64,000 nt of DNA, taken from assembly GCF_945870625.1 (NCBI RefSeq), contig NZ_CAMBTS010000002.1:18379-82378 (forward strand). Direction: 5' to 3'. Source of the stretch: Novosphingobium sp. Chol11. Its GTDB lineage: Bacteria; Pseudomonadota; Alphaproteobacteria; Sphingomonadales; Sphingomonadaceae. Below, in pieces: positions 10,821-62,744 of the stretch. The stretch's first letter is position 1. Every line of letters begins with the position of its first letter. The notes beneath the pieces are model-generated. The model made no database searches and had not been told where the DNA came from. It worked only from the letters and a program-made list of their open reading frames with translations. The translations under genes were made by a program, and so were the position numbers.

Positions 10821-12044
10821 CTACCCTGTCACCATCGGCATTTCGCGCACGCCGCGCATGGTCAGCGTGTCCATGTATTCCACCGTGTCGCTCGCCATCG
10901 CGACGTTGGGGAAGCGCGTGAACAGGCGGCTGATGGCAATGCGCCCCTCGGCCCGGGCCAGCGGCGCGCCAAGGCAGAAGTGGATGCCGTGGTTGAAGGT
11001 GAGGTGGCGATTGGGCGTACGGCCGATGTCGAAACGGGCCGCCGCTTCAAAAACCTCAGGGTCATGGTTGGCCGCGTTGACCATGGCGAACACCCGGTCG
11101 CCTTGGTTCAGCGTTTTCCCGCGCAGTTCGAATGGCGCTTTGACGACGCGGACGACCGCGCCGGTTGGCCCTTCGAAGCGCAGCATTTCTTCCACAGCGC
11201 TGGCGATCAGCGAGGGGTCTGCAAGGAACCGGGCCTTCTGGTCCGGATTTTGGAGCAGCGCGCGGATGCCGTTGCCGATCAGGTTGGTGGTCGTCTCGTG
11301 GCCCGCAAACAGGAACAGAATGCACGAACCGATCAGCTCATCCTCGGTGATCTGGCTTGTTTGCTGGAGCATCACGAAGTGCGAGATCACATCTTCGCGC
11401 GGCTGGCCAAGCCGGTCCTTCGCCGCATCCCGGAAATAATCGGCCATCGCCACGATGCCCGCGCGCCCGGTTTCATACTTATCGCCGCCGCCGGTGGCAT
11501 TGCCGAGGAATGGCTGCAACTGCATCGACCAGTCGCGCAACAAATCCATATCCGCGCGCGGCACGCCGAGCAGATCCATGATGACGCTGGCGGGCAGCGG
11601 ATTGGCAAATTCACTGATGCATTCAAATTGCCCATCGCCGCGCGCCGCGATCCGATCCAGCAGGCTGTCTGCCAGTTCGGCGATGCCATCCTCAAGCCCG
11701 CGCATCACGCTTGGGGTCACAACCTTGTTGAGCAAGCCGCGCAGCCGGGTGTGATCGGGCGGATCCTTAAATACGACCCATGTGTTCAAATACCGGATCA
11801 AGTCGCTCAGGCGGCTTTGCTCGCCGCCCTGCTGGCTTTCGAAAAACGGCGTCAGCCGGTCCGACGAGATACCGCCGTTCATCTGCACCGCTTTGACATC
11901 GTCATGACGGGTGAGCACCCAGCCTTTGAGCAAGGGCGACCAATGCACCGGATCTTCGGCCTGCAGGCGCAGCAAGGTCTCAAGCGGGCGCTGGATCACA
12001 TCGGGATCGCGCGGATCGAAGACCAGAGGGGCGGCAGTTGGCAT
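10821..12044 (-). CDS. Cytochrome P450
   Basis: A soluble bacterial P450 of 407 residues. The I-helix oxygen-binding motif is FAGHETTTNLIG, the ExxR motif is EEMLRFEG, and the heme-ligand loop is FNHGIHFCLGAPLARAEGR with the axial Cys. It needs external ferredoxin and reductase partners, none of which is adjacent. It is the first gene of the minus-strand P450-ligase-thiolase-TetR operon, divergent from the EthD gene, which suggests oxygenation of a hydrophobic compound before CoA activation and thiolytic cleavage (inference). Confidence 0.93.
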   Translation of the reverse strand: MPTAAPLVFDPRDPDVIQRPLETLLRLQAEDPVHWSPLLKGWVLTRHDDVKAVQMNGGISSDRLTPFFESQQGGEQSRLSDLIRYLNTWVVFKDPPDHTRLRGLLNKVVTPSVMRGLEDGIAELADSLLDRIAARGDGQFECISEFANPLPASVIMDLLGVPRADMDLLRDWSMQLQPFLGNATGGGDKYETGRAGIVAMADYFRDAAKDRLGQPREDVISHFVMLQQTSQITEDELIGSCILFLFAGHETTTNLIGNGIRALLQNPDQKARFLADPSLIASAVEEMLRFEGPTGAVVRVVKAPFELRGKTLNQGDRVFAMVNAANHDPEVFEAAARFDIGRTPNRHLTFNHGIHFCLGAPLARAEGRIAISRLFTRFPNVAMASDTVEYMDTLTMRGVREMPMVTG

Positions 12045-43755: not shown

Positions 43756-44831
43756 ACGCGATTACCCAGATCAAGGCAGCGCCGCTCACGGATGTGCCTG
43801 ATACGATGAAGATCGCGCGTGAGAACACTCTGCTGTCTCCGCGTTTCTACACCACCGATTTCGCCGCGCTCGACAGGATCGACGTATCAAGCGTGCGGGC
43901 CGAATGGGATCAGTTGATCGCCGAAATGCAGGCAGACCCCAACAAGCTGCATTTCAAGCGCACCGAGGCCTTCAACGGCGTGATCGAAGGCCTGCCCGAG
44001 GCGCTGCGCGAAGAGTTCATCGATTTTCTGGTCAGCTCGCTCACCGCCGAGTTCTCAGGCTGCATCCTCTATGCCGAGATCCAGCGCCGCGCCAAGAACC
44101 CCGATATCAAGATGCTGTTCAAACTGATGAGCCGGGATGAAAGCCGCCATGCCGGGTTCATCAACGATACGCTCAAGGATTCAGGGATCGGCATCGATCT
44201 CGGGTTTCTGACCAAGACCAAGAAATACACGTATTTCCGCCCCAAGTTCATTTTCTACGCAACGTACCTTTCGGAAAAGATTGGTTATGCGCGCTACATC
44301 ACGATTTATCGCCATCTGGCCAAGCACCCGGAATTGCGGTTTCACCCGATTTTCAACTGGTTCGAGCAGTGGTGCAACGACGAGTTCCGCCACGGCGATG
44401 CCTTTGCCCTGCTGATGCGCAACGATCCCAAGCTGCTCACCGGCTTCAACAAGCTGTGGGTGCGCTTCTTCCTCGTGGCGATCTACGCCACCATGTACAT
44501 CCGCGATCATAATCGGCCTGCGTTCCACAAGGCCCTTGGCATTGATCCGACGGATTATGACCTGCAGGTTTTCCGCGTCTGCTCGCAGATCACCAAGCAG
44601 GTGTTCCCGATGACACTCGACACCGACTCGCCGCGCTTTCAGGCCGGGCTTGAGCGGATGCGCGTGGTCTCGGCCAAGATCGATGCGGCAAAGGAGCAAG
44701 GCGGCATTCTCGGCGGGATCAAGCGAATTGGCCTCAGCGCCACCGCTGCGGTCAATTTCTTGCGGCTCTACCTTACGCCGGTTCACACCAACACGGCACC
44801 CGCGCAGGTCTGCATGGTCCCCGCCTGGTGA
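43752..44831 (+). CDS. acsF: Aerobic Mg-protoporphyrin IX monomethyl ester cyclase AcsF
   Basis: A 359-residue di-iron oxygenase forming the isocyclic ring of protochlorophyllide with O2. Di-iron ligand motifs are [10 protein letters not shown] and [12 protein letters not shown], with upstream acidic ligands in the [14 protein letters not shown] region. Its presence, and the lack of bchE in view, indicate oxygenic ring closure as in aerobic anoxygenic phototrophs. It may need a small auxiliary subunit not seen here. Confidence 0.95.
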
Positions 44832-45649
44832 CAATGCCGCCGCTCATCTTTGCGTTGTTGACGTGGTTTGTCGGCACGGCTGCGGTGGTCTGGCTTGATA
44901 GTCGCCCGCGCGAGACGTTCCAGACCAGCCACCGGCTTGGCGGCCTCACCGCGTTGCTGGCAGCGGCGGTGATCGCCTTCTACGCTGATGATAGCAGCGC
45001 CGCCGGGGCCTACATCGGGTTTGCGGCGGCCATCGTGATCTGGGGCTGGCACGAGATGGGCTTCCTGATGGGGTTTGTCGCGGGGCCCCGCCGCTTGCCC
45101 TGCCCGCCCGAGGCGCAGGGATGGCGGCGGTTTCGCCTGGCCATGGCGACCGTCATCCACCATGAAATCGCGCTCGGCGCGACGCTGCTGCTGCTCGTCG
45201 CGCTGACCTGGGGGCAGCCTAACCAGGCGGGGCCGCTCACCTTCGCGCTGCTGTTCGGCATGCGGCTTAGCGCGAAGTTCAATCTGTATCTGGGCGTGCC
45301 CAATCTCAGCGACGAGGTGTTTCCGGCGCACCTTGAGTATCTGAAAAGCTATTTCCGCAAGCGCGCGTGCAATGCGCTTTATCCGTTCTCGTTGGCCGGC
45401 GGGATCGCCATCACGGTATGGGCGTGGTCGGTGTCTGAATCCGCGCCAGTGGCCAATGGCACTTGGGCTACAGGCGCGCTTCTGGCGGGGTTTGCGGCGC
45501 TCGGCGTGATCGAGCATCTGTTTCTCGTCCTGCCGATAAAGGACGCCGCCATGTGGCAATGGGCGGCATCATCCGGTAAGCCGGTCTCGCGAGGACCGGC
45601 TGCGCAGCCAGCAACAATCAAGGCGCCCACGCGCGCCATCATCGACTGA
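44828..45649 (+). CDS. puhE: Photosynthetic complex assembly protein PuhE
   Basis: A 273-residue polytopic membrane protein (about seven helices). Signatures are [39 protein letters not shown] and [20 protein letters not shown]. It affects bacteriochlorophyll production and RC-LH1 assembly. A GTG at 44828 overlaps the acsF stop as GTGA, like the other junctions in this operon; the ATG at 44834 is an alternative. Confidence 0.92.
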
Positions 45650-47007: not shown

Positions 47008-47050
47008 TGTCAACACGGCTTAACATAGTGCTTGTCAAAAGATTTTGACA
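47008..47050 (+). promoter_or_regulatory. Two tandem PpsR/CrtJ operators upstream of crtD (copy 1)
   Basis: TGTCAACACGGCTTAACA (47008-47025) and TGTCAAAAGATTTTGACA (47033-47050) both match TGT-N12-ACA exactly, separated by 7 bp. The second ends in TTGACA, a consensus -35 box, 47 bp upstream of the crtD ATG. Confidence 0.8.
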
Positions 47051-47097: not shown

Positions 47098-48690
47098 ATG
47101 GCGCAACCGCCGATCCTGATCATCGGTGCCGGAGTCGCGGGTCTCAGCGCGGCAGCGCTGCTGGCGGCGCGGGGCGAACCGGTTGTCGTGCTCGAACGCC
47201 ACGGCCACCCCGGCGGCAAGCTGCGCGAAGTGACTGCAGGCGGCCAACAGGTCGATGCCGGGCCCACCGTGTTCACCATGCGCTGGGTGTTTGAGCGCCT
47301 GTTTGCCGAAGCAGGCGGCGATTTTGACAGCGCCATCAAGCTTATCCCCACGCACATCTTGGCGCGCCACGCTTGGGACGGCGAGCGCCAGTTCGATCTA
47401 TTCGCCGATCAGGGCGAAAGCGAGGCCGCCATCGGGGACTTCTTTGGTGCGCGAGAGGCGGCGGGCTACCGGGACTTTTGCCGCGAGGCGCGCAATATCT
47501 TCGAGGTGCTGCGCGAATCGTTTCTCGATGCCACCCTGCCAACGCCGCTCTCGATGATGCAGCGAATCGGTTGGGCGAAGTTGCCAACTGCGCTCGCCAT
47601 CCGGCCGCACCAGCCCCTGTGGCGTGCAGTCTCGCGGCATTTTCGGGATCCCCGGCTGCGGCAGCTGTTTGGGCGTTATGCCACGTATTGCGGATCATCG
47701 CCCTTTGTCGCGCCCGCCACCCTGATGCTGATCGCGCATGTCGAGCGCGAGGGTGTCTGGCTGGTCGAAGGCGGCATGCATGCGGTTGCCAAAGCGATCG
47801 AGCGGCTGGCGCGCGCCAATGGCGCGATTTTCCGCTACAATGCGCATGTCAGCGAAATACTCGTCGAGAATGGCCGCGCCTGCGGCGTCAGGCTGGCGGG
47901 GGGTGAGGAAGTTCGCGCCCGCGCGATCGTCTGCAACGGCGATCCGGCGGCACTGTCGATCGGCCTGTTCGGCGCAGCAGCGCGCACCGCAACGCCGCCG
48001 GTGCCGGCGGCGCAGCGCTCGCTCTCCAGCTTCACCTGGATGCTGAACGCGGCAACCTCCGGAAGTTTCCCGCTGGTCCGCCACAACGTGTTCTTTTCGC
48101 CGGATTACAAGGCAGAGTTCGACGCGATCTTCCGCGATCGCAAAGTGCCGGCGCGCCCGACCATCTACATTTGTGCGCAAGACCGCGACGACGGCGGCGG
48201 ACGCACCGGCACCGGGCCAGAACGGCTCCAGTTGATCGTTAACGCTCCGCCCATCGGCGACACCCATCACTTCTCTGAAACGGAGAGAGCCACATGCGAG
48301 ACGCAAACATTCGCCTTCCTGGCAGCCTGTGGCCTGACGATCGAGCGCACGGCGCCGTCATCAGTTCCGGCCTCAACACCGGCAGCGGTGCTGGTTACCC
48401 CGACGGATTACGAGGGCTTGTTCCCGGCGACCGGCGGAGCGCTTTATGGTCGGGCGAACCACGGGTGGCAGGCGCCGTTCCAGCGGCCCGGCTCGGCAAG
48501 TCGCCTGCCGGGGCTCTATCTGGCGGGCGGCGGGACTCATCCGGGCGCCGGGATCCCGATGGCGAGCTTATCCGGGCGGCTGGCGGCAGGCCAGCTGTTG
48601 GCGGACCTGCCTTCGATGCCGTGGTCCCAGCCGGGGGATATGCCTGGTGGTACATCGACGCGCTCAGCGACGACGGCCGCCACGGCCTGA
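47098..48690 (+). CDS. crtD: Carotenoid 3,4-desaturase CrtD, copy 1
   Basis: A 530-residue CrtI/CrtD-type FAD desaturase of the spirilloxanthin branch. The dinucleotide motif ILIIGAGVAGLSAAALLAA and PGGKLREV are N-terminal, and GLYLAGGGTHPGAGIPMASL is the C-terminal signature. After the usual end (GRLAAGQLLAD) a 28-residue tail runs through the beginning of crtC in another frame. No Shine-Dalgarno precedes the ATG. A second CrtD lies at 60255, sharing FGRYATYCGSSPF and many other blocks. Confidence 0.9.
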   Translation: MAQPPILIIGAGVAGLSAAALLAARGEPVVVLERHGHPGGKLREVTAGGQQVDAGPTVFTMRWVFERLFAEAGGDFDSAIKLIPTHILARHAWDGERQFDLFADQGESEAAIGDFFGAREAAGYRDFCREARNIFEVLRESFLDATLPTPLSMMQRIGWAKLPTALAIRPHQPLWRAVSRHFRDPRLRQLFGRYATYCGSSPFVAPATLMLIAHVEREGVWLVEGGMHAVAKAIERLARANGAIFRYNAHVSEILVENGRACGVRLAGGEEVRARAIVCNGDPAALSIGLFGAAARTATPPVPAAQRSLSSFTWMLNAATSGSFPLVRHNVFFSPDYKAEFDAIFRDRKVPARPTIYICAQDRDDGGGRTGTGPERLQLIVNAPPIGDTHHFSETERATCETQTFAFLAACGLTIERTAPSSVPASTPAAVLVTPTDYEGLFPATGGALYGRANHGWQAPFQRPGSASRLPGLYLAGGGTHPGAGIPMASLSGRLAAGQLLADLPSMPWSQPGDMPGGTSTRSATTAATA

Positions 48691-49520
48691 CCATCATTGC
48701 CTTTATCGGCAGCGTGTTCTCGCCCTACTATCACTGGTCGGGGCGCGGTGATCCGGAAAATCACGTTGCCATGAACGTCGCGCTCTATGGCCCAAAGGGC
48801 GGCTGGGCGATGACCGAGCGCGGCCGCGGATCGCTCCATTGCACGCACGACACGCTGGCGATCGGACCGAGCAGCATGGCATGGGACGGCACCAAGCTGA
48901 CCATCGACCTCGCCGAAGTAACCGCGCCGTTTCCCTCACGCATCCGGGGCCGGATCATGCTCCATCCGCGCGTTATGCCGGGCACGTTGTGGCCGCTGGA
49001 CGCTGCCGGTTGCCATGCCTGGCGGCCGATAGCCCCGCGCGCAGTCGTGGAGGTCGATCTGGGCAGCCCCAACTTGCGCTGGCGCGGTGAGGGCTATTTC
49101 GACAGCAACGCCGGGATCGAGCCGCTGGAACATGCCTTTGCCGATTGGCACTGGTCGCGTGCGCATCTGCAGCGCGATACGGTGGTGATGTATGAAGGCA
49201 ATCGGCGCGACGGTTCAGACTTTGCGATGGGGCTGCGCTTTGCCGAAAGCGGCGCCATCGACGAGATCGCCTTGCCGCCTTCGCAGACCTTGCCGAAGAC
49301 CCTGTGGCGGGTGTCGCGCCGTGCTCGGGCCGATCAGGGCCATCCCGCCGCAATCCGCCGCACCTGGGAGGATACGCCGTTCTACGCGCGCACCGCGCTG
49401 ACGGCGCGGGTTCTGGGCGAAGATGCCGAGATCGTGCATGAAAGCCTGTCGCTGGACCGGCTGACCAACCCGGTCGTGCGGCTGATGCTACCCTTCCGGA
49501 TGCCCCGTTTCGTCAGATGA
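48621..49520 (+). CDS. crtC: Hydroxyneurosporene synthase CrtC (carotenoid 1,2-hydratase)
   Basis: The conserved CrtC start FDAVVPAGGYAWWYIDALSD is followed by SVFSPYYHWSGRGDPENHVA and later WHWSRAHLQRDTVVMYEG. It hydrates the acyclic carotenoid end group. The start is uncertain: no ATG/GTG/TTG lies just upstream of the conserved FD, so I use the GTG inside DAVVP (48621), giving 299 residues. The long track ORF from 48294 is a crtD shadow. crtC overlaps the crtD tail by 70 nt, and its 3' end overlaps the convergent small gene by 33 nt. Confidence 0.85.
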   Translation: MVPAGGYAWWYIDALSDDGRHGLTIIAFIGSVFSPYYHWSGRGDPENHVAMNVALYGPKGGWAMTERGRGSLHCTHDTLAIGPSSMAWDGTKLTIDLAEVTAPFPSRIRGRIMLHPRVMPGTLWPLDAAGCHAWRPIAPRAVVEVDLGSPNLRWRGEGYFDSNAGIEPLEHAFADWHWSRAHLQRDTVVMYEGNRRDGSDFAMGLRFAESGAIDEIALPPSQTLPKTLWRVSRRARADQGHPAAIRRTWEDTPFYARTALTARVLGEDAEIVHESLSLDRLTNPVVRLMLPFRMPRFVR

Positions 49521-49646
49521 AGGCTGGTCCGCTTCGCGCAGCGAGCGGCGAACCGACCAATATTGCCAGGCGCAAAAGCCGAGCGGCAGCGCCGCCGACA
49601 GTGTCATTTCGATCAGGCCGATGTTGTTGCCGATCCAAGCTGACAT
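49488..49646 (-). CDS. Small single-pass membrane protein, unknown function
   Basis: A 52-residue ORF too short for the track as such. It reads MSAWIGNNIGLIEMTLSAAL then PLGFCAWQYWSVRRSLREAD, i.e. one hydrophobic helix followed by a basic W-x-V-R-R-S end. Its start shares one base with the stop of the upstream membrane-protein gene (TGATG), so the two are translationally coupled. Its 3' end overlaps crtC on the other strand. Confidence 0.6.
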   Translation of the reverse strand: MSAWIGNNIGLIEMTLSAALPLGFCAWQYWSVRRSLREADQPSSDETGHPEG

Positions 49647-50356
49647 CAGCGTAAGCTCCCTGCTGCGGCACGGGCCCGTCCGAATGTGAACCAGGCAATC
49701 AGCGCGACGCCAATGATGCTGGGGATCGCCCAGATGACCGGATTGAACACATGGTCTGGCACCAGCCGGATCAGGCCGACCGACAGAAATGCGGTATAGG
49801 CCGAAATCCCCATGCCCAGCAACGAGCGAAAATGTTCGGCGACATGGCCGCCGCGCGGCGGCCGCGCGCGCCAGATATAGAACAACTGGGTCGCCGTGGC
49901 GATCAATCCGATCAGCGCGACCAGCGCCATCAAGGGCTGGCCGGTCCACAGTCCATAGACCCCGCAATTGAGCGCTGACACGGTCACGGCAGCAAACACC
50001 AGCTGGTGGCGCGGCCGGCGCAGCGCTTCGCGGCGCGAACGGTGCCGCACGACGCTCAGCCCATAATCGGCAAAGGATAATGTCAGCATGCCGAGGTACA
50101 GCATCATCCAGCCGAACAGGCCGCGAAACAGCACCCGGTCCTTGATCATCGGCAAGCGTTGTTCAGGCCCGAAGAGCGAAAGCAGCGCCATCGCTATCGC
50201 CAGAACGCCCGCCGCCATGAACGCGCGGGCCGCTATCTGGCCCCATGAGCGGTGGCTGGCTCCGCCCTTGACCACCGCGATCGGCACCCAAAATGAAACG
50301 AGACCCACGGTCCCGCAGATCACATGAAGAACGACGATGGATTCAAAAAGGCTCAT
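49646..50356 (-). CDS. Seven-helix membrane protein of unknown function downstream of pufC
   Basis: A 236-residue polytopic protein. It has ESIVVLHVICGTVGLVSFWV then KGGASHRSWGQIAARAF, followed by FRGLFGWMMLYLGMLTLSFA and a C-terminal LVPDHVFNPVIWAIPSIIGV. It loosely recalls DUF2306-like proteins, but I cannot name it. It starts 66 bp after the pufC stop on the same strand and so may be transcribed with the puf operon. A coupled 52-residue gene follows. Confidence 0.75.
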   Translation of the reverse strand: MSLFESIVVLHVICGTVGLVSFWVPIAVVKGGASHRSWGQIAARAFMAAGVLAIAMALLSLFGPEQRLPMIKDRVLFRGLFGWMMLYLGMLTLSFADYGLSVVRHRSRREALRRPRHQLVFAAVTVSALNCGVYGLWTGQPLMALVALIGLIATATQLFYIWRARPPRGGHVAEHFRSLLGMGISAYTAFLSVGLIRLVPDHVFNPVIWAIPSIIGVALIAWFTFGRARAAAGSLR

Positions 50357-50422
50357 GAACCATCATCTCGCCCGGGCGCTGAGAGCCCCGCGCCGCCTTT
50401 GCAGGCGGCGCGGGTGCCATCA

Positions 50423-51577
50423 TCAATGCGCTGGTGTGGACTTCTTGGGCCCGGTGCTGGCCGGCGCGCCAGACACAGCGGCCGCGGCAACTGCCGGCGC
50501 GGCAGCAGCCCCATCTTCCGCCGGTGCGGCGGCGGCTGGCGCAGGTTCCATCCCGGCAGGAGGTCCGACCGGCCCCTTTAGCGACGGCGCCATCGAGATC
50601 ATGCTGACCCCGCCCAGCGGCTTGTTCTGGCCCTGGTGGCAGGTGAGGCAATTGACCTTGTAGGGATCACCCAGCGGGCCCTTGCGGTGCGCCGGCATCA
50701 CCGAGGCAAGGCCATTGATATAGCCTTCGTTGACATCGCGGACCATGCGAATGCCGTAGTAGGCGGTCACGCGCTGCGGGCGGCTGTTCGGCCACGAACG
50801 GAACGAGTCCGTATTGTGGCAGAAGGTGCAGTTCACCCCGAGCCCCGTGCTCATATGCATCATCAGACCATAGGTCTTTTCTGCATCCTTGGTCGACACA
50901 ACGTGGTTGGGCGAGGGCAGGCGCGAGTCGCTGGCAACCCGGATCTGCGACTTGCCCTGGAAATAGGTCGAGAATGCGTTGTTCGGCAGCGACGCATAGG
51001 AGACGTCAATGTCGGGCGCATTCTGGCCAAACTTGTTGCCGGTGATCGTCGACGGGTTGATCGACCCGGGCTTGACCGCCCAGATGTTCGCCGGAACCGC
51101 GTTGCCACGGTGACAGGTATAGCAAGTCACCCCGGTCTGCTTGACATGGTTTGACCAGCGGCTGTTGATCTGCTGCGTCATCTGCAACATGCGCCGCGCC
51201 ACGACCTTGGTATACTTCTCATCCGAGGCCATGTTTTCAGGGTTGTGGCAATAGTTGCAGCCTTGCTCGGGCGGCGCGATCCACTGGTTCATCTGCGCCA
51301 TCAGCAGATTGAACTCTTCGGTCCGCACGTTGCCGAGCACCTGCACGTTCTTGTAAGAGACCGACGAGAGCGGGCCCAGATCGGCAGGCAGATCGTAGGG
51401 CTTGGCCGGGATCACCGCCGCCGGGATCTTCAGGCGGGGATTATTGACTTGGTTCATGCCGGTGCCGCGATAGCCGAGCTGATCGCTCTGCTTCGGGCCG
51501 ATCTCGCAGCCGCCAAGGGCCAGCGAGAGTACGGCGATGGAACCGGCGATTGTTGCCTTTTTTATATATCCAATCAT
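50423..51577 (-). CDS. pufC: Photosynthetic reaction center tetraheme cytochrome c subunit
   Basis: A 384-residue lipoprotein (lipobox LALGGC, acylated Cys near residue 24) on the periplasmic face of the RC, rereducing the special pair. The four heme sites are CNYCH, CYTCH, CTFCH and CLTCH. A ~55-residue Ala/Pro-rich C-terminal tail follows the last heme. The ATG at 51577 overlaps the pufM stop (ATGA). Confidence 0.96.
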
Positions 51578-52548
51578 GGCGTTGCTCCCGGAAGAGTAGC
51601 TGGATCGACGACACCTGTGGTCGGATACGATGGCGCATAGCCATGCTGCATCGCCCACAGATACCAGTTATCGACGACGGTACCGGTCAACAATATGCCT
51701 ATTCCGCCACTCAGCGTGGTCAACACGGCGAACCACCAGGCCCAGCGATGGATCGATTCCATCGTGGCATTGAAGCCCATCGTCCAGCGCCAGAACAAGG
51801 CGGCACGCTCCGAAGCGGTTCCACGATCGGTGATCTGCTCGATCTCGCGCTCACCGCCATAACGGCCGACCGCAAGAATGGTGGCGCCGTGCATCGCGAA
51901 CAGCAAGGTCGATCCATAAAGGAACACGATCGAGAGGCAGTGGAACGGATTGTAGAACAAATTACCGTAGCGGATCGAGAATGCTGCGGTCCAGTCAAGG
52001 TGCGGGAAGATGCCATAAGGCACCGCCTCGGCCCAGCTGCCCATCATCATCGGCCGGATGAAGCCGAGGACGGCCATCAGCCAGATGGCGCTGAGGAATG
52101 CCCAGGAAACGTGCGTGCCCATGCCCAGTTCGCGTGCCCGCAGATACGTGCGTGCCCACCACAGCAGCACCGACGCGCTGAAGAAGAAGCCTGTGATGAT
52201 GAACCAGCCGCCCTCATTCAGCGGCACCATGGCGCGAAAGCCCCACTCCGGGCCGGGCGGTTCAAGCGAAAGCCAAAAGAGCTGGCGAACGAATTGAACC
52301 GGATCCCAGCCCACCGAAGCGAACATGTTTAGCCCGATGATCTCGAATGCGATGATCCCGCAAAGCAGCGAAGCCGTGCCCAGACCGCCAAGATAGATCG
52401 GTCCGATTTGCGCATTGCCAATCTTGCCAAGGAGCCAGGCGAAGCCGGGATTACCGATCCTCGGAAAGCTGCCTTTGGGCAGGTCTGGCCCCATTTCGGC
52501 GGGTCCGCGTAGCTGGACCTGCGTGAAAATGTTTTGATATTGTGCCAT
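51574..52548 (-). CDS. pufM: Photosynthetic reaction center subunit M
   Basis: A 324-residue five-helix core subunit. Recognised by [32 protein letters not shown], the bacteriochlorophyll-ligand helix [20 protein letters not shown] and [20 protein letters not shown], which holds iron- and quinone-site residues. The ATG at 52548 has GGGGAG 10 nt upstream; the track start is a TTG three codons earlier. Confidence 0.97.
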
Positions 52549-52565
52549 TTTCGTCAATCTCCCCT

Positions 52566-53405
52566 TCAGGACCAGATCGGCAGGTTAAGCCACCAAGTCC
52601 ACCATTCGGGCCAGCCGCGTGTCCAGAGCGGGCCGCTGATGATGATGCAGATCGCGCTCCAGAAGCCGGCCGACAAAGCCAGGAACAGACCCACGCGATG
52701 GATGCCAAGCGTGCCAACCGAATAGCCGATCGTGTCACGGAAAAAGGCATCTTCGTATTCGGGCGACTTCACTTCGCCGCGCACCCCGTTTGAATCCTTA
52801 GGGGGATTGACCGCCGACAACACCAGCGCGCCATGCAGCGAAAGCGCCAGCGTGGTCGTGAAGAAGAAGGTCACCGCGATCATATGCGCTGGATTGTAGT
52901 GGAAGTGAAGATATTGGTAGCCCGTGTTCGAGACCCAATCGAGATGGCTAAAGATGCCATAAGGAAAGCCGAAACCCCACGCACCCAGCATCAACGGCCG
53001 GATGACCACGAGCGAAGTGTAGGCAAAGATCGCAAAGCCGAACGCGAACGGAACATGATAACCCATGCCCAGTTTGCGGCAGATTTCAACTTCGCGCAGC
53101 GCCCATGAGACGAACGCGCCGAGTGCGCAGATCGTGATGATCTGCCAGTCGCCGCCCTTGGTCAGCGGTGCCAACGCCAGACCATAGCTGATGTCCGGCG
53201 GAGCGATGCTGATCAACCACGGGTTCCACGTTGGCCCGCGAGACGCCGAATAAAAGATCAACAGGGTGCCCAGCGCCGCGAAAAGCGCGCCGATGATCCC
53301 GAAAAATCCAACATAAAACGGTCCGAACCAGTAATCGAACAGGTCGCCGCCAATCAGCGTTCCCCCTCGCACCCGGTATTTTCGCTCGAAGCTCAGCAAC
53401 GCCAT
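52566..53405 (-). CDS. pufL: Photosynthetic reaction center subunit L
   Basis: A 279-residue core subunit. It begins [20 protein letters not shown] and contains [39 protein letters not shown] and [20 protein letters not shown] (iron ligand region). With PufM it binds the special pair, pheophytins and quinones. The ATG at 53405 is the family start; the track's 53609 start would run through the pufA-pufL hairpins. Confidence 0.97.
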
Positions 53406-53464
53406 GGCTATCTCTCCGCACCCGCCGATCGGGTGGTTCGTGTCCCAGAAACATTCGTTTAATG

Positions 53465-53496
53465 GGCGGGGATGGTCGAACTTGACCATCCCCGCC
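53465..53496 (-). other. Intercistronic hairpin 1 between pufA and pufL
   Basis: On the minus strand GGCGGGGATGGTC and its exact complement enclose AAGTTC. It lies downstream of pufA without a T-tract. In Rhodobacter, hairpins here block 3'-exonucleases and raise pufBA mRNA over pufLM mRNA. Confidence 0.8.
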
Positions 53497-53505
53497 ATGC
53501 CTGTA

Positions 53506-53527
53506 GTCGCGCCCCGAAGGACGCGAC
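53506..53527 (-). other. Intercistronic hairpin 2 between pufA and pufL, UUCG tetraloop
   Basis: GTCGCGTCC-TTCG-GGGCGCGAC on the minus strand forms nine pairs (one U-G) closed by a C(UUCG)G tetraloop, 12 nt after the pufA stop. Together with hairpin 1 it forms a double 3' stabiliser for pufBA. Confidence 0.75.
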
Positions 53528-53538
53528 CGACAGTTTTG

Positions 53539-53730
53539 TTAGGTAGCCGGCGCTGCCACAGGCGCGACCGAAGCCGCTGCCACGGCAGGAGCCGGGGTGG
53601 GGGCTTCAAGCCAGTTGTACCTGTTGGTGCTGAGCAGGATGAAATGAATCAAGATTGCCAGCGTGAACAGGAAAATGGCAAGCGAGACCAGCGTACGACG
53701 CGGATCGAAAGTGCTCCACATTTTATGCAT
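53539..53730 (-). CDS. pufA: Light-harvesting LH1 alpha polypeptide
   Basis: A 63-residue antenna protein. It begins [20 protein letters not shown], and the bacteriochlorophyll-binding His is in [17 protein letters not shown]. After the usual end it carries an Ala/Pro/Val tail of ~20 residues ([12 protein letters not shown]...). AAGGGAA precedes the ATG. It is encoded between pufB and the hairpins. Confidence 0.96.
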
Positions 53731-59023: not shown

Positions 59024-59067
59024 CGTAACCTTAACTTGACGGTTTATGTTGTCAACCAGATTGGACA
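59024..59067 (-). promoter_or_regulatory. Two tandem PpsR/CrtJ operators upstream of bchC
   Basis: TGTCAACCAGATTGGACA (59050-59067) matches TGT-N12-ACA exactly. CGTAACCTTAACTTGACG (59024-59041) is a CGT/ACG variant. They are 8 bp apart. On the minus strand the distal site ends in TTGACA (-35), and the proximal site covers the -10 region. Confidence 0.75.
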
Positions 59068-60254: not shown

Positions 60255-61835
60255 ATGCAAGTGAGACGCCCAAGCCCGGACAGAGGGTCGGTGCAAGCGC
60301 GCGGCGTGGTCGTGATCGGCGGCGGGATCGGCGGGCTCGTCAGCGCGGCTTTGCTCGCGGCAAAGGGCTGCGATGTCACCCTGATAGAGGCAGCGGCCGG
60401 TCCCGGCGGCAAATTGCGCACGGTGATCTCAGGCGGCGCGGCGATCGACGGCGGACCAACCGTGTTCACCTTGCGCCGCGTGTTCGAGGATGTTTTCGCG
60501 GCATGCGGGGCCGATCTGGCGGATCATGTCACGATGCAGCCGGCCACCACGCTCGCCCGCCACGCCTGGGGAGACGCGCGGCTCGATCTGTTTGCCGATC
60601 CGGCGCGAAGCGAAGCCGCCATCGGCGATTTTGCCGGCCCCGCAGAAGCGCGCGGTTACCGCGCCTTTCGCGCCGAATCGCAGCGCCTGTTCGAAGCGCT
60701 CGACCGGCCGTTCCTCCATGGCAGCAAGACCAATCCCTTGACGCTGGGCTGGCGCATGGGCGCGCGCGGCTTGCCCGATTTCGTCAACTTGCGCCCGTTC
60801 ACCACGATGGCGCGCGCGCTGGGCGGCTATTTCAAGGATCCGCGCCTCCGGCAATTGTTTGGCCGCTATGCCACGTATTGCGGGTCCTCCCCGTTCCAGT
60901 GCCCGGCCACGCTGATGCTGGTCGCGCATGCCGAGGCCAGCGGGGTGTGGCTGATCGATGGCGGGATGCACCGGCTGGCGCTGGCGCTCGAGGCGCTGGG
61001 CCGCAGCCAGGGCGTGCGCTTTCGCTATAATGCGCCGGTGCGCGAGATCGTGGTCGAACGGGGCCGCGCGGCGGGCGTGGTGCTGGCCAGCGGCGAACGG
61101 ATCGCGGCCGGATCGGTGGTGTGCAACGCCGACGCTGCCGCACTTGGCGCCGGGCACTTGGGCGAAGCCGCCCGCCGCGCCGCCAGCCCGGTCCCGGCGC
61201 GCCGCCGCTCGCTGAGCGCGATGGTGTGGACCGCCAGCGCCCGCACCAGCGGCTTTCCGCTCACGCGCCACAACGTGTTCTTTTCCGATGACTACGCCGC
61301 CGAATTCGCCGCGCTCGCCGCCGGGCGGCTGGCCGATGCGCCCAGCGTCTATATCTGCGCGCAGGACCGCGATAGCGCCGGTGCCGCGCCCGGGGGCGCA
61401 GAACGTATTCAGATCATCGTCAACGCTCCGGCGATTGGCGATGGCGCGGGCTTCAGCGCGGCCGAGATCGCCGCCTGCCAGCGCCAGATGCTGGACACCG
61501 TCGCGCGGTCAGGGCTTTCGCTCGATCTCGAACCGGGGGCCGTGCTCACTACGCCATCCGAATTTGCCGGGCTTTTTCCCGCGACCGGCGGCGCGCTCTA
61601 TGGCGCGGCTTCGCATGGCTGGGCGGCATCGTTCCAGCGGCAGGGCAGCCGCACGCGCATTCCGGGGCTTTATTGCGCAGGCGGCAGCACCCATCCCGGC
61701 GCGGGCGTGCCGATGGCGGCGCTTTCCGGCCGGCTTGCCGCCCATTGCCTGCTGCAGGATCAGGCCGCCCAGCGCCCGGCGCAATGGCGCATCGGCAATC
61801 TTCCCCGGCCAGCGAACCTCGAACCCGCCAAATAA
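60255..61835 (+). CDS. crtD: Carotenoid 3,4-desaturase CrtD-like, copy 2
   Basis: A 526-residue CrtI/CrtD-family FAD desaturase. It has VVVIGGGIGGLVSAALLAAK, PGGKLRTV, the central block DPRLRQLFGRYATYCGSSPF and the end GLYCAGGSTHPGAGVPMAAL. Almost every block is shared with CrtD copy 1 (47098), so they are paralogues with possibly divided specificity (3,4-desaturation versus another step). GGAGG lies 12 nt before the ATG. It is divergent from crtF and convergent with bchO (3-bp gap, no terminator). Confidence 0.9.
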   Translation: MQVRRPSPDRGSVQARGVVVIGGGIGGLVSAALLAAKGCDVTLIEAAAGPGGKLRTVISGGAAIDGGPTVFTLRRVFEDVFAACGADLADHVTMQPATTLARHAWGDARLDLFADPARSEAAIGDFAGPAEARGYRAFRAESQRLFEALDRPFLHGSKTNPLTLGWRMGARGLPDFVNLRPFTTMARALGGYFKDPRLRQLFGRYATYCGSSPFQCPATLMLVAHAEASGVWLIDGGMHRLALALEALGRSQGVRFRYNAPVREIVVERGRAAGVVLASGERIAAGSVVCNADAAALGAGHLGEAARRAASPVPARRRSLSAMVWTASARTSGFPLTRHNVFFSDDYAAEFAALAAGRLADAPSVYICAQDRDSAGAAPGGAERIQIIVNAPAIGDGAGFSAAEIAACQRQMLDTVARSGLSLDLEPGAVLTTPSEFAGLFPATGGALYGAASHGWAASFQRQGSRTRIPGLYCAGGSTHPGAGVPMAALSGRLAAHCLLQDQAAQRPAQWRIGNLPRPANLEPAK

Positions 61836-61838
61836 GCG

Positions 61839-62744
61839 CTATTGCGGCGATGCCGCGAATTGGCGGATGAGCACGGCGACGTCGGCGGGGCGCTCTTCGT
61901 GCGCGAGGTGTCCCAGCGCGGCGAGCCGGGTGACGCGCGCGCCGCCGATCAGCGCCGCCGCCTCATGGGCGTTTGCCAGCGGGATCGCCGCATCGGCTTC
62001 GCCGTGCACCAGCAGCAGCGGGGCCTTGAGGCGCGGCAGATCGCGCTTCAGCGCGGCCAAATCCCAATCCGCCATCATCGTGATCGCGCCCGCGCAATGC
62101 CCCGGCGTGGCAAACAGCCGTTCGTAGTAGCCAGCGCCCTCGGCATCGATCTGCGAGCCGGTGCTGCGCGCGAGAAACCGCGCCGTCTCGCCCGGCCGCC
62201 GCGCGATCCCCGCGAAGAAATGCGGCGCGAACGGATTGACGAACAGCAGGCGCGCCAGCGTGGGAAACAGCTTTGCCGCCAATCCCGGAAACGGCAATAG
62301 CGCGGCGTTGAGGCCAACGATGCTGCGCGGGCTGACAACATCGTCCAGCGCCATGCGCAGGGCAATCGCCGCGCCTGCGGAATGGCCGACGACATGGATC
62401 GGCGCAAGATCCAGCGCTTTGAGCAATTTGCCGAGTTCGCGCGCCATGGCAGACATCGTCAATCCGCCCAGCGGACGCCCGGTGGTGAAGCCATGGCCCG
62501 GCAGATCGGGGGCGACGACGATGAAATCGGCCGCCAGCAATGGTGCCAGCGCGCGCCAGCTGTGGGTGGCAGCGCCGGTGCCATGGAGCAGGAGCAGCAC
62601 CGGCTTGCCGCTATCCTCACGCCCGCTATCCTCAGGCCCGAAGACCTGCACATGCCAGCGCAGCCTGCCGCTTTCGACAAAGCGGCTGCGCGCGCGGCTT
62701 GGCCAGTCGCGCCCTTCGGCGTCCCAGCGCGGCGTCTGGCTCAT
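61839..62744 (-). CDS. bchO: Alpha/beta hydrolase BchO, Mg-chelatase-associated
   Basis: A 301-residue alpha/beta-hydrolase conserved in PGCs as BchO. Features are LLLHGTGAATHSWRALAPLL, the nucleophile elbow VVGHSAGAAIALRMA, and the His in LAALGHLAHEERP. A role accompanying Mg-chelatase is assumed from its constant linkage to bchID. An in-frame 15-bp tandem repeat encodes EDSGREDSGK. Its ATG overlaps the bchD stop (ATGA). Confidence 0.92.
   Translation of the reverse strand: MSQTPRWDAEGRDWPSRARSRFVESGRLRWHVQVFGPEDSGREDSGKPVLLLLHGTGAATHSWRALAPLLAADFIVVAPDLPGHGFTTGRPLGGLTMSAMARELGKLLKALDLAPIHVVGHSAGAAIALRMALDDVVSPRSIVGLNAALLPFPGLAAKLFPTLARLLFVNPFAPHFFAGIARRPGETARFLARSTGSQIDAEGAGYYERLFATPGHCAGAITMMADWDLAALKRDLPRLKAPLLLVHGEADAAIPLANAHEAAALIGGARVTRLAALGHLAHEERPADVAVLIRQFAASPQ

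Follow-up and report, generated by a model that had tools for sequence, protein, structure and literature searches.

The end of the puf operon of Novosphingobium sp. Chol11 carries two genes for membrane proteins of 236 and 52 residues, which raises the question of whether these proteins serve photosynthesis and, if they do, whether they act as one unit and as parts of the RC-LH1 complex. In the stretch of DNA analysed (64,000 nucleotides; hereafter the window), the minus strand reads bchCXYZ, then pufL, pufM and pufC, the gene for the 236-aa protein and finally that for the 52-aa protein (the 52-mer). The coordinates agree with the preliminary description of two open reading frames that follow pufC on the same strand and overlap by a single base in a TGATG:

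48639..49520, plus strand: crtC, convergent with the 52-aa gene
49488..49646, minus strand: gene for the 52-aa single-helix protein (ATG at 49646-49644; stop ending at 49488)
49644..49648, minus strand: TGATG stop/start overlap of the 236-aa and 52-aa genes (common base 49646)
49646..50356, minus strand: gene for the 236-aa membrane protein (ATG at 50356; TGA at 49648-49646)
50357..50422, minus strand: pufC/236-aa intergenic region, with a strong 12-bp hairpin and no U-tract
50423..51574, minus strand: pufC, reaction-centre cytochrome subunit, the upstream neighbour (stop at 50423-50425)
51574..52557, minus strand: pufM
52566..53609, minus strand: pufL

Both open reading frames are real genes, as homologues of each are conserved in relatives. 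The TGATG overlap makes translational coupling of the two possible, and the 3' end of the 52-aa gene has 33 bp in common with crtC, which runs towards it on the plus strand and ends at 49520. The gap between pufC and the 236-aa gene is 66 bp; given this short distance, the common strand and the finding of no promoter-like site in the region, co-transcription with puf is plausible. Coming right after pufC, the 236-aa gene has the position of a puf-operon member, with attenuation possible at this point: the 12-bp hairpin (-40.9 kcal/mol and z -3.5 for a 72-nt piece) could be an attenuator or an mRNA-stability element. In close relatives, namely S. psychrolutea and several MAGs, the gap after pufC measures 32-42 bp and lacks such a hairpin, whereas in Blastomonas a hairpin with a T-run behind it occupies this position. 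These Blastomonas hairpins and T-runs belong to the loci L020-L023, with a longer inverted-repeat block in three strains. In Blastomonas aquatica the two open reading frames abut (TGA ATG), and 12-17 bp lie between them in other Blastomonas.

The distribution of the 236-aa protein was set against that of the reaction centre (RC), a genome being counted as RC-positive if it had a PF00124 match above the cut-off of that model. The home family (f1, Sphingomonadaceae in the wide sense) is represented by 251 genomes including the window genome G000, and 46 of these are RC-positive. Homologues of the 236-aa protein, with 40-79% identity, were found in 14 of the 250 other home-family genomes and at 16 loci of named genomes; within the home family they occur in 15/46 RC-positive and 0/205 RC-negative genomes (Fisher 1e-12, a value that overstates independence as the genomes are related). 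A second family, f128 (around genome G377), gives 6/7 versus 0/16 (p = 7e-5, overstated for the same reason). The broad occurrence in non-phototrophs that the preliminary description had named as its refutation was not found for the close clade. The named carriers belong to Sphingomonas, Blastomonas, Erythrobacter and Porphyrobacter or are MAGs, one of them labelled Hyphomicrobiales, and the further carrier genomes tested (13 named ones including the Hyphomicrobiales MAG, plus G377) are RC-positive in 14 cases out of 14. A class-wide scan returned full-length matches in G000, G043 and G377 only, all of them RC-positive, the remaining matches being partial and mostly N-terminal. Since 31 of the 46 phototrophic Sphingomonadaceae are without the 236-aa protein, phototrophy does not depend on it.

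With a broader profile, a scan across the phylum brought in one more close homologue, within the photosynthesis cluster of G944 (family f187), as well as distant homologues (24-30% identity) in family f195 and in G685. The loci of the distant homologues have no photosynthesis genes; it is to the close clade alone (approximately 38% identity and above) that the phototroph-only distribution applies. In a tree of the family, which has long branches and whose exact order is uncertain, all sampled phototroph sequences form one clade (support 95/94) apart from the distant homologues. The ancestral function of the superfamily may have been non-photosynthetic, and its wider membership appears from gene context to work with or under a two-component system. 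Among the loci of the distant homologues (L169-L174, from f195 and G685), most of the f195 ones read have the homologue divergent from or beside genes for a sensor kinase and a NarL-type response regulator.

Beyond the window, the 236-aa gene lies directly after pufC in S. psychrolutea, in Blastomonas spp. and in several Sphingomonas MAGs, so that for the larger gene the conservation beside pufC in other Sphingomonadales, proposed earlier as a check, was found. In three genera (g25, g43 and g22) it lies apart from pufLM, and at the Erythrobacter and Porphyrobacter loci no gene of the window's photosynthesis set was found within 10 kb around it. According to passages of two published studies, Erythrobacter-type photosynthesis clusters are mostly without pufC (PMC4919336, PMC3338782), and the 236-aa gene, being found in genomes of this type, has no fixed tie to PufC.

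The unlinked copies were searched for PpsR/CrtJ-type operators (TGTN12ACA) with a matrix derived from 26 sites in promoters of photosynthesis clusters, and p-values were computed relative to random windows from the loci themselves. In the window, the 236-aa gene stands behind the bchCXYZ-puf genes, whose operator is the following:

59050..59067, no strand assigned: PpsR/CrtJ-type operator TGTCAACCAGATTGGACA, upstream of bchCXYZ-puf

Upstream of the unlinked copies, the operator is found at -27/-28 from the ATG in L010, L012 and L013 and at -41 in L029 and L031, its position being common within lineages. It reaches p<0.01 in 5/11 unlinked copies (Fisher-combined p 3e-8, which overstates the strength as the sequences are related); in the other 6/11 it is absent or weak. 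No good operator was found upstream of L008, L011, L028, L030 and L032, and the g22 copies have none. Independently of synteny, these predicted operators speak for membership of the unlinked 236-aa gene in the photosynthesis regulon of the organisms that have them. Within the window, sites of this type at 47008, 47033, 59050 and 60200 fall in promoter regions near hemA/crtD, bchC and crtF/crtI.

These results bear on the suspicion that the locus is nothing more than a gene for a generic membrane protein with a spurious small reading frame behind it, both hitch-hiking beside puf. The great distance of the 236-aa gene from puf in Erythrobacter-type genomes would be in keeping with such a passenger, as would the occurrence of distant homologues in regions that have no photosynthesis genes. 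However, the co-occurrence with phototrophy is strict even where the gene is unlinked, PpsR-type operators precede several unlinked copies, and both reading frames are conserved. The co-occurrence results largely refute the passenger explanation, which we consider very improbable. Taken together, co-occurrence, gene neighbourhood and operator sites indicate that the 236-aa gene is probably a photosynthesis-regulon gene, and we are highly confident that the function of its product is specific to photosynthesis.

Where the gene is not next to puf, its neighbours are suggestive of the kind of function it may have. In f128, in G944 of f187 and in the Hyphomicrobiales MAG, the homologue lies beside or near a cytochrome P450 gene, and in f128 and f187 it is also found with bchO, bchD/bchI, crtB, crtC, crtD or crtI and an IspH-like gene, several of these neighbours having been assigned by eye. 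The P450 may possibly take part in carotenoid modification. The P450s near the homologues (L127-L131, L168, L033) are 54-96% identical to each other, and an ATP-grasp-like gene is also near the P450 and the homologue in G944. A counterpart of this P450 in the window was considered and rejected, the only P450 match in the window (10839-11366, minus strand) being 25% identical to the photosynthesis-cluster P450 and without bearing on the present finding.

Two AlphaFold runs on the 236-aa protein (mean pLDDT 82 and 84) gave models with seven long helices, in line with its earlier designation as polytopic, the last 40 residues being weaker. Across 37 of 37 sequences, the distant homologues included, H11, G15, F22, W23, K30, G31, H35, G39, H175, G183, I184, T188, A189, F190, G194, W209, P212 and G216 are invariant; H11 lies inside helix 1, H35 at the start of helix 2 and H175 at that of helix 6, and the C-terminal part carries the motif EH-x7-G-I-x2-YTAF. 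From these features we infer a cofactor- or ligand-binding membrane protein. The family has no model of its own in Pfam or NCBIfam, where it yielded sub-threshold matches to DUF2306 and DUF420 and a single pass for MtN3_slv. Foldseek searches with two models returned no significant fold match, and loose matches to other seven-helix proteins (GPCRs) were rejected at an rmsd of approximately 15 A.

The sub-threshold matches could point to a membrane protein with a redox function or with haem or another cofactor, of the DUF2306/DUF420 or b561 kind, co-opted to the photosynthetic electron-transfer or quinone environment. The first two helices of DUF2306 (PF10067) and DUF420 (PF04238) bear H-x(3)-G and KG-x(3)-H-x(3)-G as does the 236-aa family, DUF2306 is matched by 9/30 family members at E<=10 (best E 0.019) with an hhalign probability of approximately 30%, and cytochrome b561 (4o7g) has the top TM-score among the 50 listed matches (0.41-0.44). 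None of these matches is significant, however, and the family falls below the Pfam gathering cut-off for DUF2306; it differs from both DUF families in its greater number of helices and possibly also in its invariant C-terminal EH...GI..YTAF block. Cytochrome b561 has four haem ligands, whereas the 236-aa family has only three invariant histidines. We therefore hold a co-opted redox protein to be unlikely. A small-solute transporter related to SWEET/MtN3 (PQ-loop) would likewise have seven helices, and the Erythrobacter dokdonensis member does score above the Pfam cut-off for MtN3_slv (PF03083; 28.5 vs 23.7 bits), with weak matches in 15/30 family members. Yet the window protein reaches 14.9 against 23.7 bits, one of ten scored members passes, the match spans helices 3-5 only and no SWEET protein is among the listed fold matches, all of which leaves a transporter with hardly any credit.

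The 52-mer has a different history. Its helix conforms to a family consensus, G-x-IE-x(8)-LGF-x2-WQ-x-WSV, with a single helix. In tblastn searches with the window 52-mer, Blastomonas copies were found at E 1e-11 to 1e-14 and further copies, linked to bchO, at 33-48% identity; a profile made from four puf-tail copies matched the bchO-linked ones down to E 1e-12. In most phototrophic home-family genomes the small gene lies, as a rule, 10-13 kb upstream of pufM and on its strand, and the ten such regions read have the standard order bchD-bchO-small gene, convergent with crtC. A small gene, located either close to bchO or as far from pufM as expected, was found in approximately 42 of the 46 RC-positive Sphingomonadaceae, some of these being weak matches; it is seemingly absent from G074, G108 and G142, and the region in G103 ends at a contig edge. 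G023 and G065, in which pufLM was undetected, have a small-protein match beside bchO and bchD, and because both genes adjoin it these two are probably phototrophs with incomplete assemblies. At bchO loci outside Sphingomonadaceae the small gene was found in 0/22.

The bchO locus of the window departs from this standard order:

61839..62744, minus strand: bchO, with its usual small downstream partner absent; crtI ends at 61835

Here crtI directly follows bchO, and the small gene is found beside crtC at the end of puf instead; in Blastomonas it is crtF that follows bchO, with the small gene likewise at the puf tail. By profile match and gene order, the 52-mer belongs to an unnamed family of single-helix proteins normally encoded downstream of bchO, its own gene having been relocated. 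The earlier claim that it stands outside the standard photosynthesis gene set accordingly falls for Sphingomonadaceae, to whose usual cluster it belongs. In S. psychrolutea and one other Sphingomonas the two genes are apart, the large one at puf and the small one at bchO, from which it follows that relocation of the small gene created the pair and that the overlap is a local feature. Most phototrophic relatives lack the large gene and have only the small one. The "coupled pair" of the preliminary description is therefore not conserved as a unit, and a fixed functional pair of the two proteins was rejected. We regard a photosynthesis-specific function of the 52-mer as very likely. Several of the bchO-linked small proteins (L107, L049, L055, L175, L177) have a conserved GH-x2-GEH-x-LDD-like C-terminal tail; the window 52-mer stops after GHPEG, at its run into crtC. 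Pfam and NCBIfam scans gave no family for the 52-mer or its relatives, and PDB matches of the small family to xylanases, through the local string WQ/FYQ-YWSVR, and to one CP47 (E 1.2) were set aside as chance.

The proposal that brought attention to the locus was that one or both proteins are stoichiometric RC-LH1 subunits, which might for instance open the LH1 ring or stabilise the complex near PufC. Lineage-specific extra polypeptides of RC-LH1 are indeed known, among them PufX, protein-W and protein-Y (PMC10214105), and the proteins described here are phototroph-only in distribution, the large gene being right after pufC in one lineage group and the small protein being a single helix of approximately 30-66 aa. 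Like PufX, protein-W and protein-Y (PufY, protein-U), they are lineage-specific photosynthetic membrane polypeptides, small in the case of the 52-mer, and one of them is puf-linked here. Against a place in the ring, however, many carriers have the large gene away from puf, it also occurs where pufC was not found, and the usual home of the small gene is the bchIDO operon. A further difference from the known polypeptides is that the small family was confined to Sphingomonadaceae within our sample; protein-Y has two helices (PMC10214105) where the small family has one. PDB sequence searches with both proteins and with profiles gave no relevant match to a chain of a known RC-LH1 accessory polypeptide, which leaves the likening of the 52-mer to PufX/W/Y without sequence support. 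Stoichiometric RC-LH1 subunits are in our estimate a rather unlikely explanation. A known polytopic membrane protein of the photosynthesis cluster that invites comparison with the 236-aa protein is PuhE (DUF3623):

44828-45649, no strand assigned: PuhE gene, assigned from sequence and cluster position

The two proteins have no sequence similarity (BLASTP E 2.4).

The explanation that we favour, with some reserve, is a puf-operon tail that holds two photosynthesis accessory genes of different origin. For the 236-aa protein, the neighbours (P450, crtB/C/D/I, bchO) and the copies far from puf argue for a role in the maturation of pigments or of the photosystem over that of a stoichiometric RC-LH1 subunit, a choice that we put at about even. 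It would be a membrane maturation factor for carotenoid modification or delivery or for RC-LH1 assembly, the invariant H11, H35 and H175 probably acting as cofactor or pigment ligands. The 52-mer family is normally made from a bchI-bchD-bchO-small gene operon of Sphingomonadaceae, and its gene has moved to the puf tail in the window lineage and in Blastomonas; in the present case it adjoins crtC and overlaps the 236-aa gene. In view of that usual operon, the 52-mer probably serves either the photosystem or BchO/Mg-chelatase, as a small anchor in the membrane or as an assembly factor. Bolder, and offered tentatively, is the proposal that the 236-aa protein is a novel seven-helix, His-bearing maturation factor of several unrelated aerobic anoxygenic phototrophs, PpsR-controlled off-cluster in Erythrobacter-type genomes, and that the 52-mer family is a core and overlooked photosystem polypeptide of Sphingomonadaceae.

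Decades of work on photosynthesis gene clusters have still left two conserved phototroph-restricted membrane proteins without a family name. Neither is described in the literature passages searched, among them passages of Sphingomonadales cluster surveys that draw grey "hypothetical" genes (PMC3176799, PMC4919336, PMC3338782, PMC5989583). The off-cluster 236-aa gene of Erythrobacter-type genomes, which often carries the operator of the photosynthesis repressor, would be missed by cluster-based surveys. Both genes are open to single-gene deletion in culturable Blastomonas, Sphingomonas, Erythrobacter and Porphyrobacter, and both polypeptides could be sought in Sphingomonadales RC-LH1 structures. 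As a minor observation from the RC scan, four genomes of genus g7 (G006, G102, G164, G213) have four RC matches each, corresponding to two pufLM sets that lie far apart; the same situation is reported for Citromicrobium in a passage of PMC3338782.
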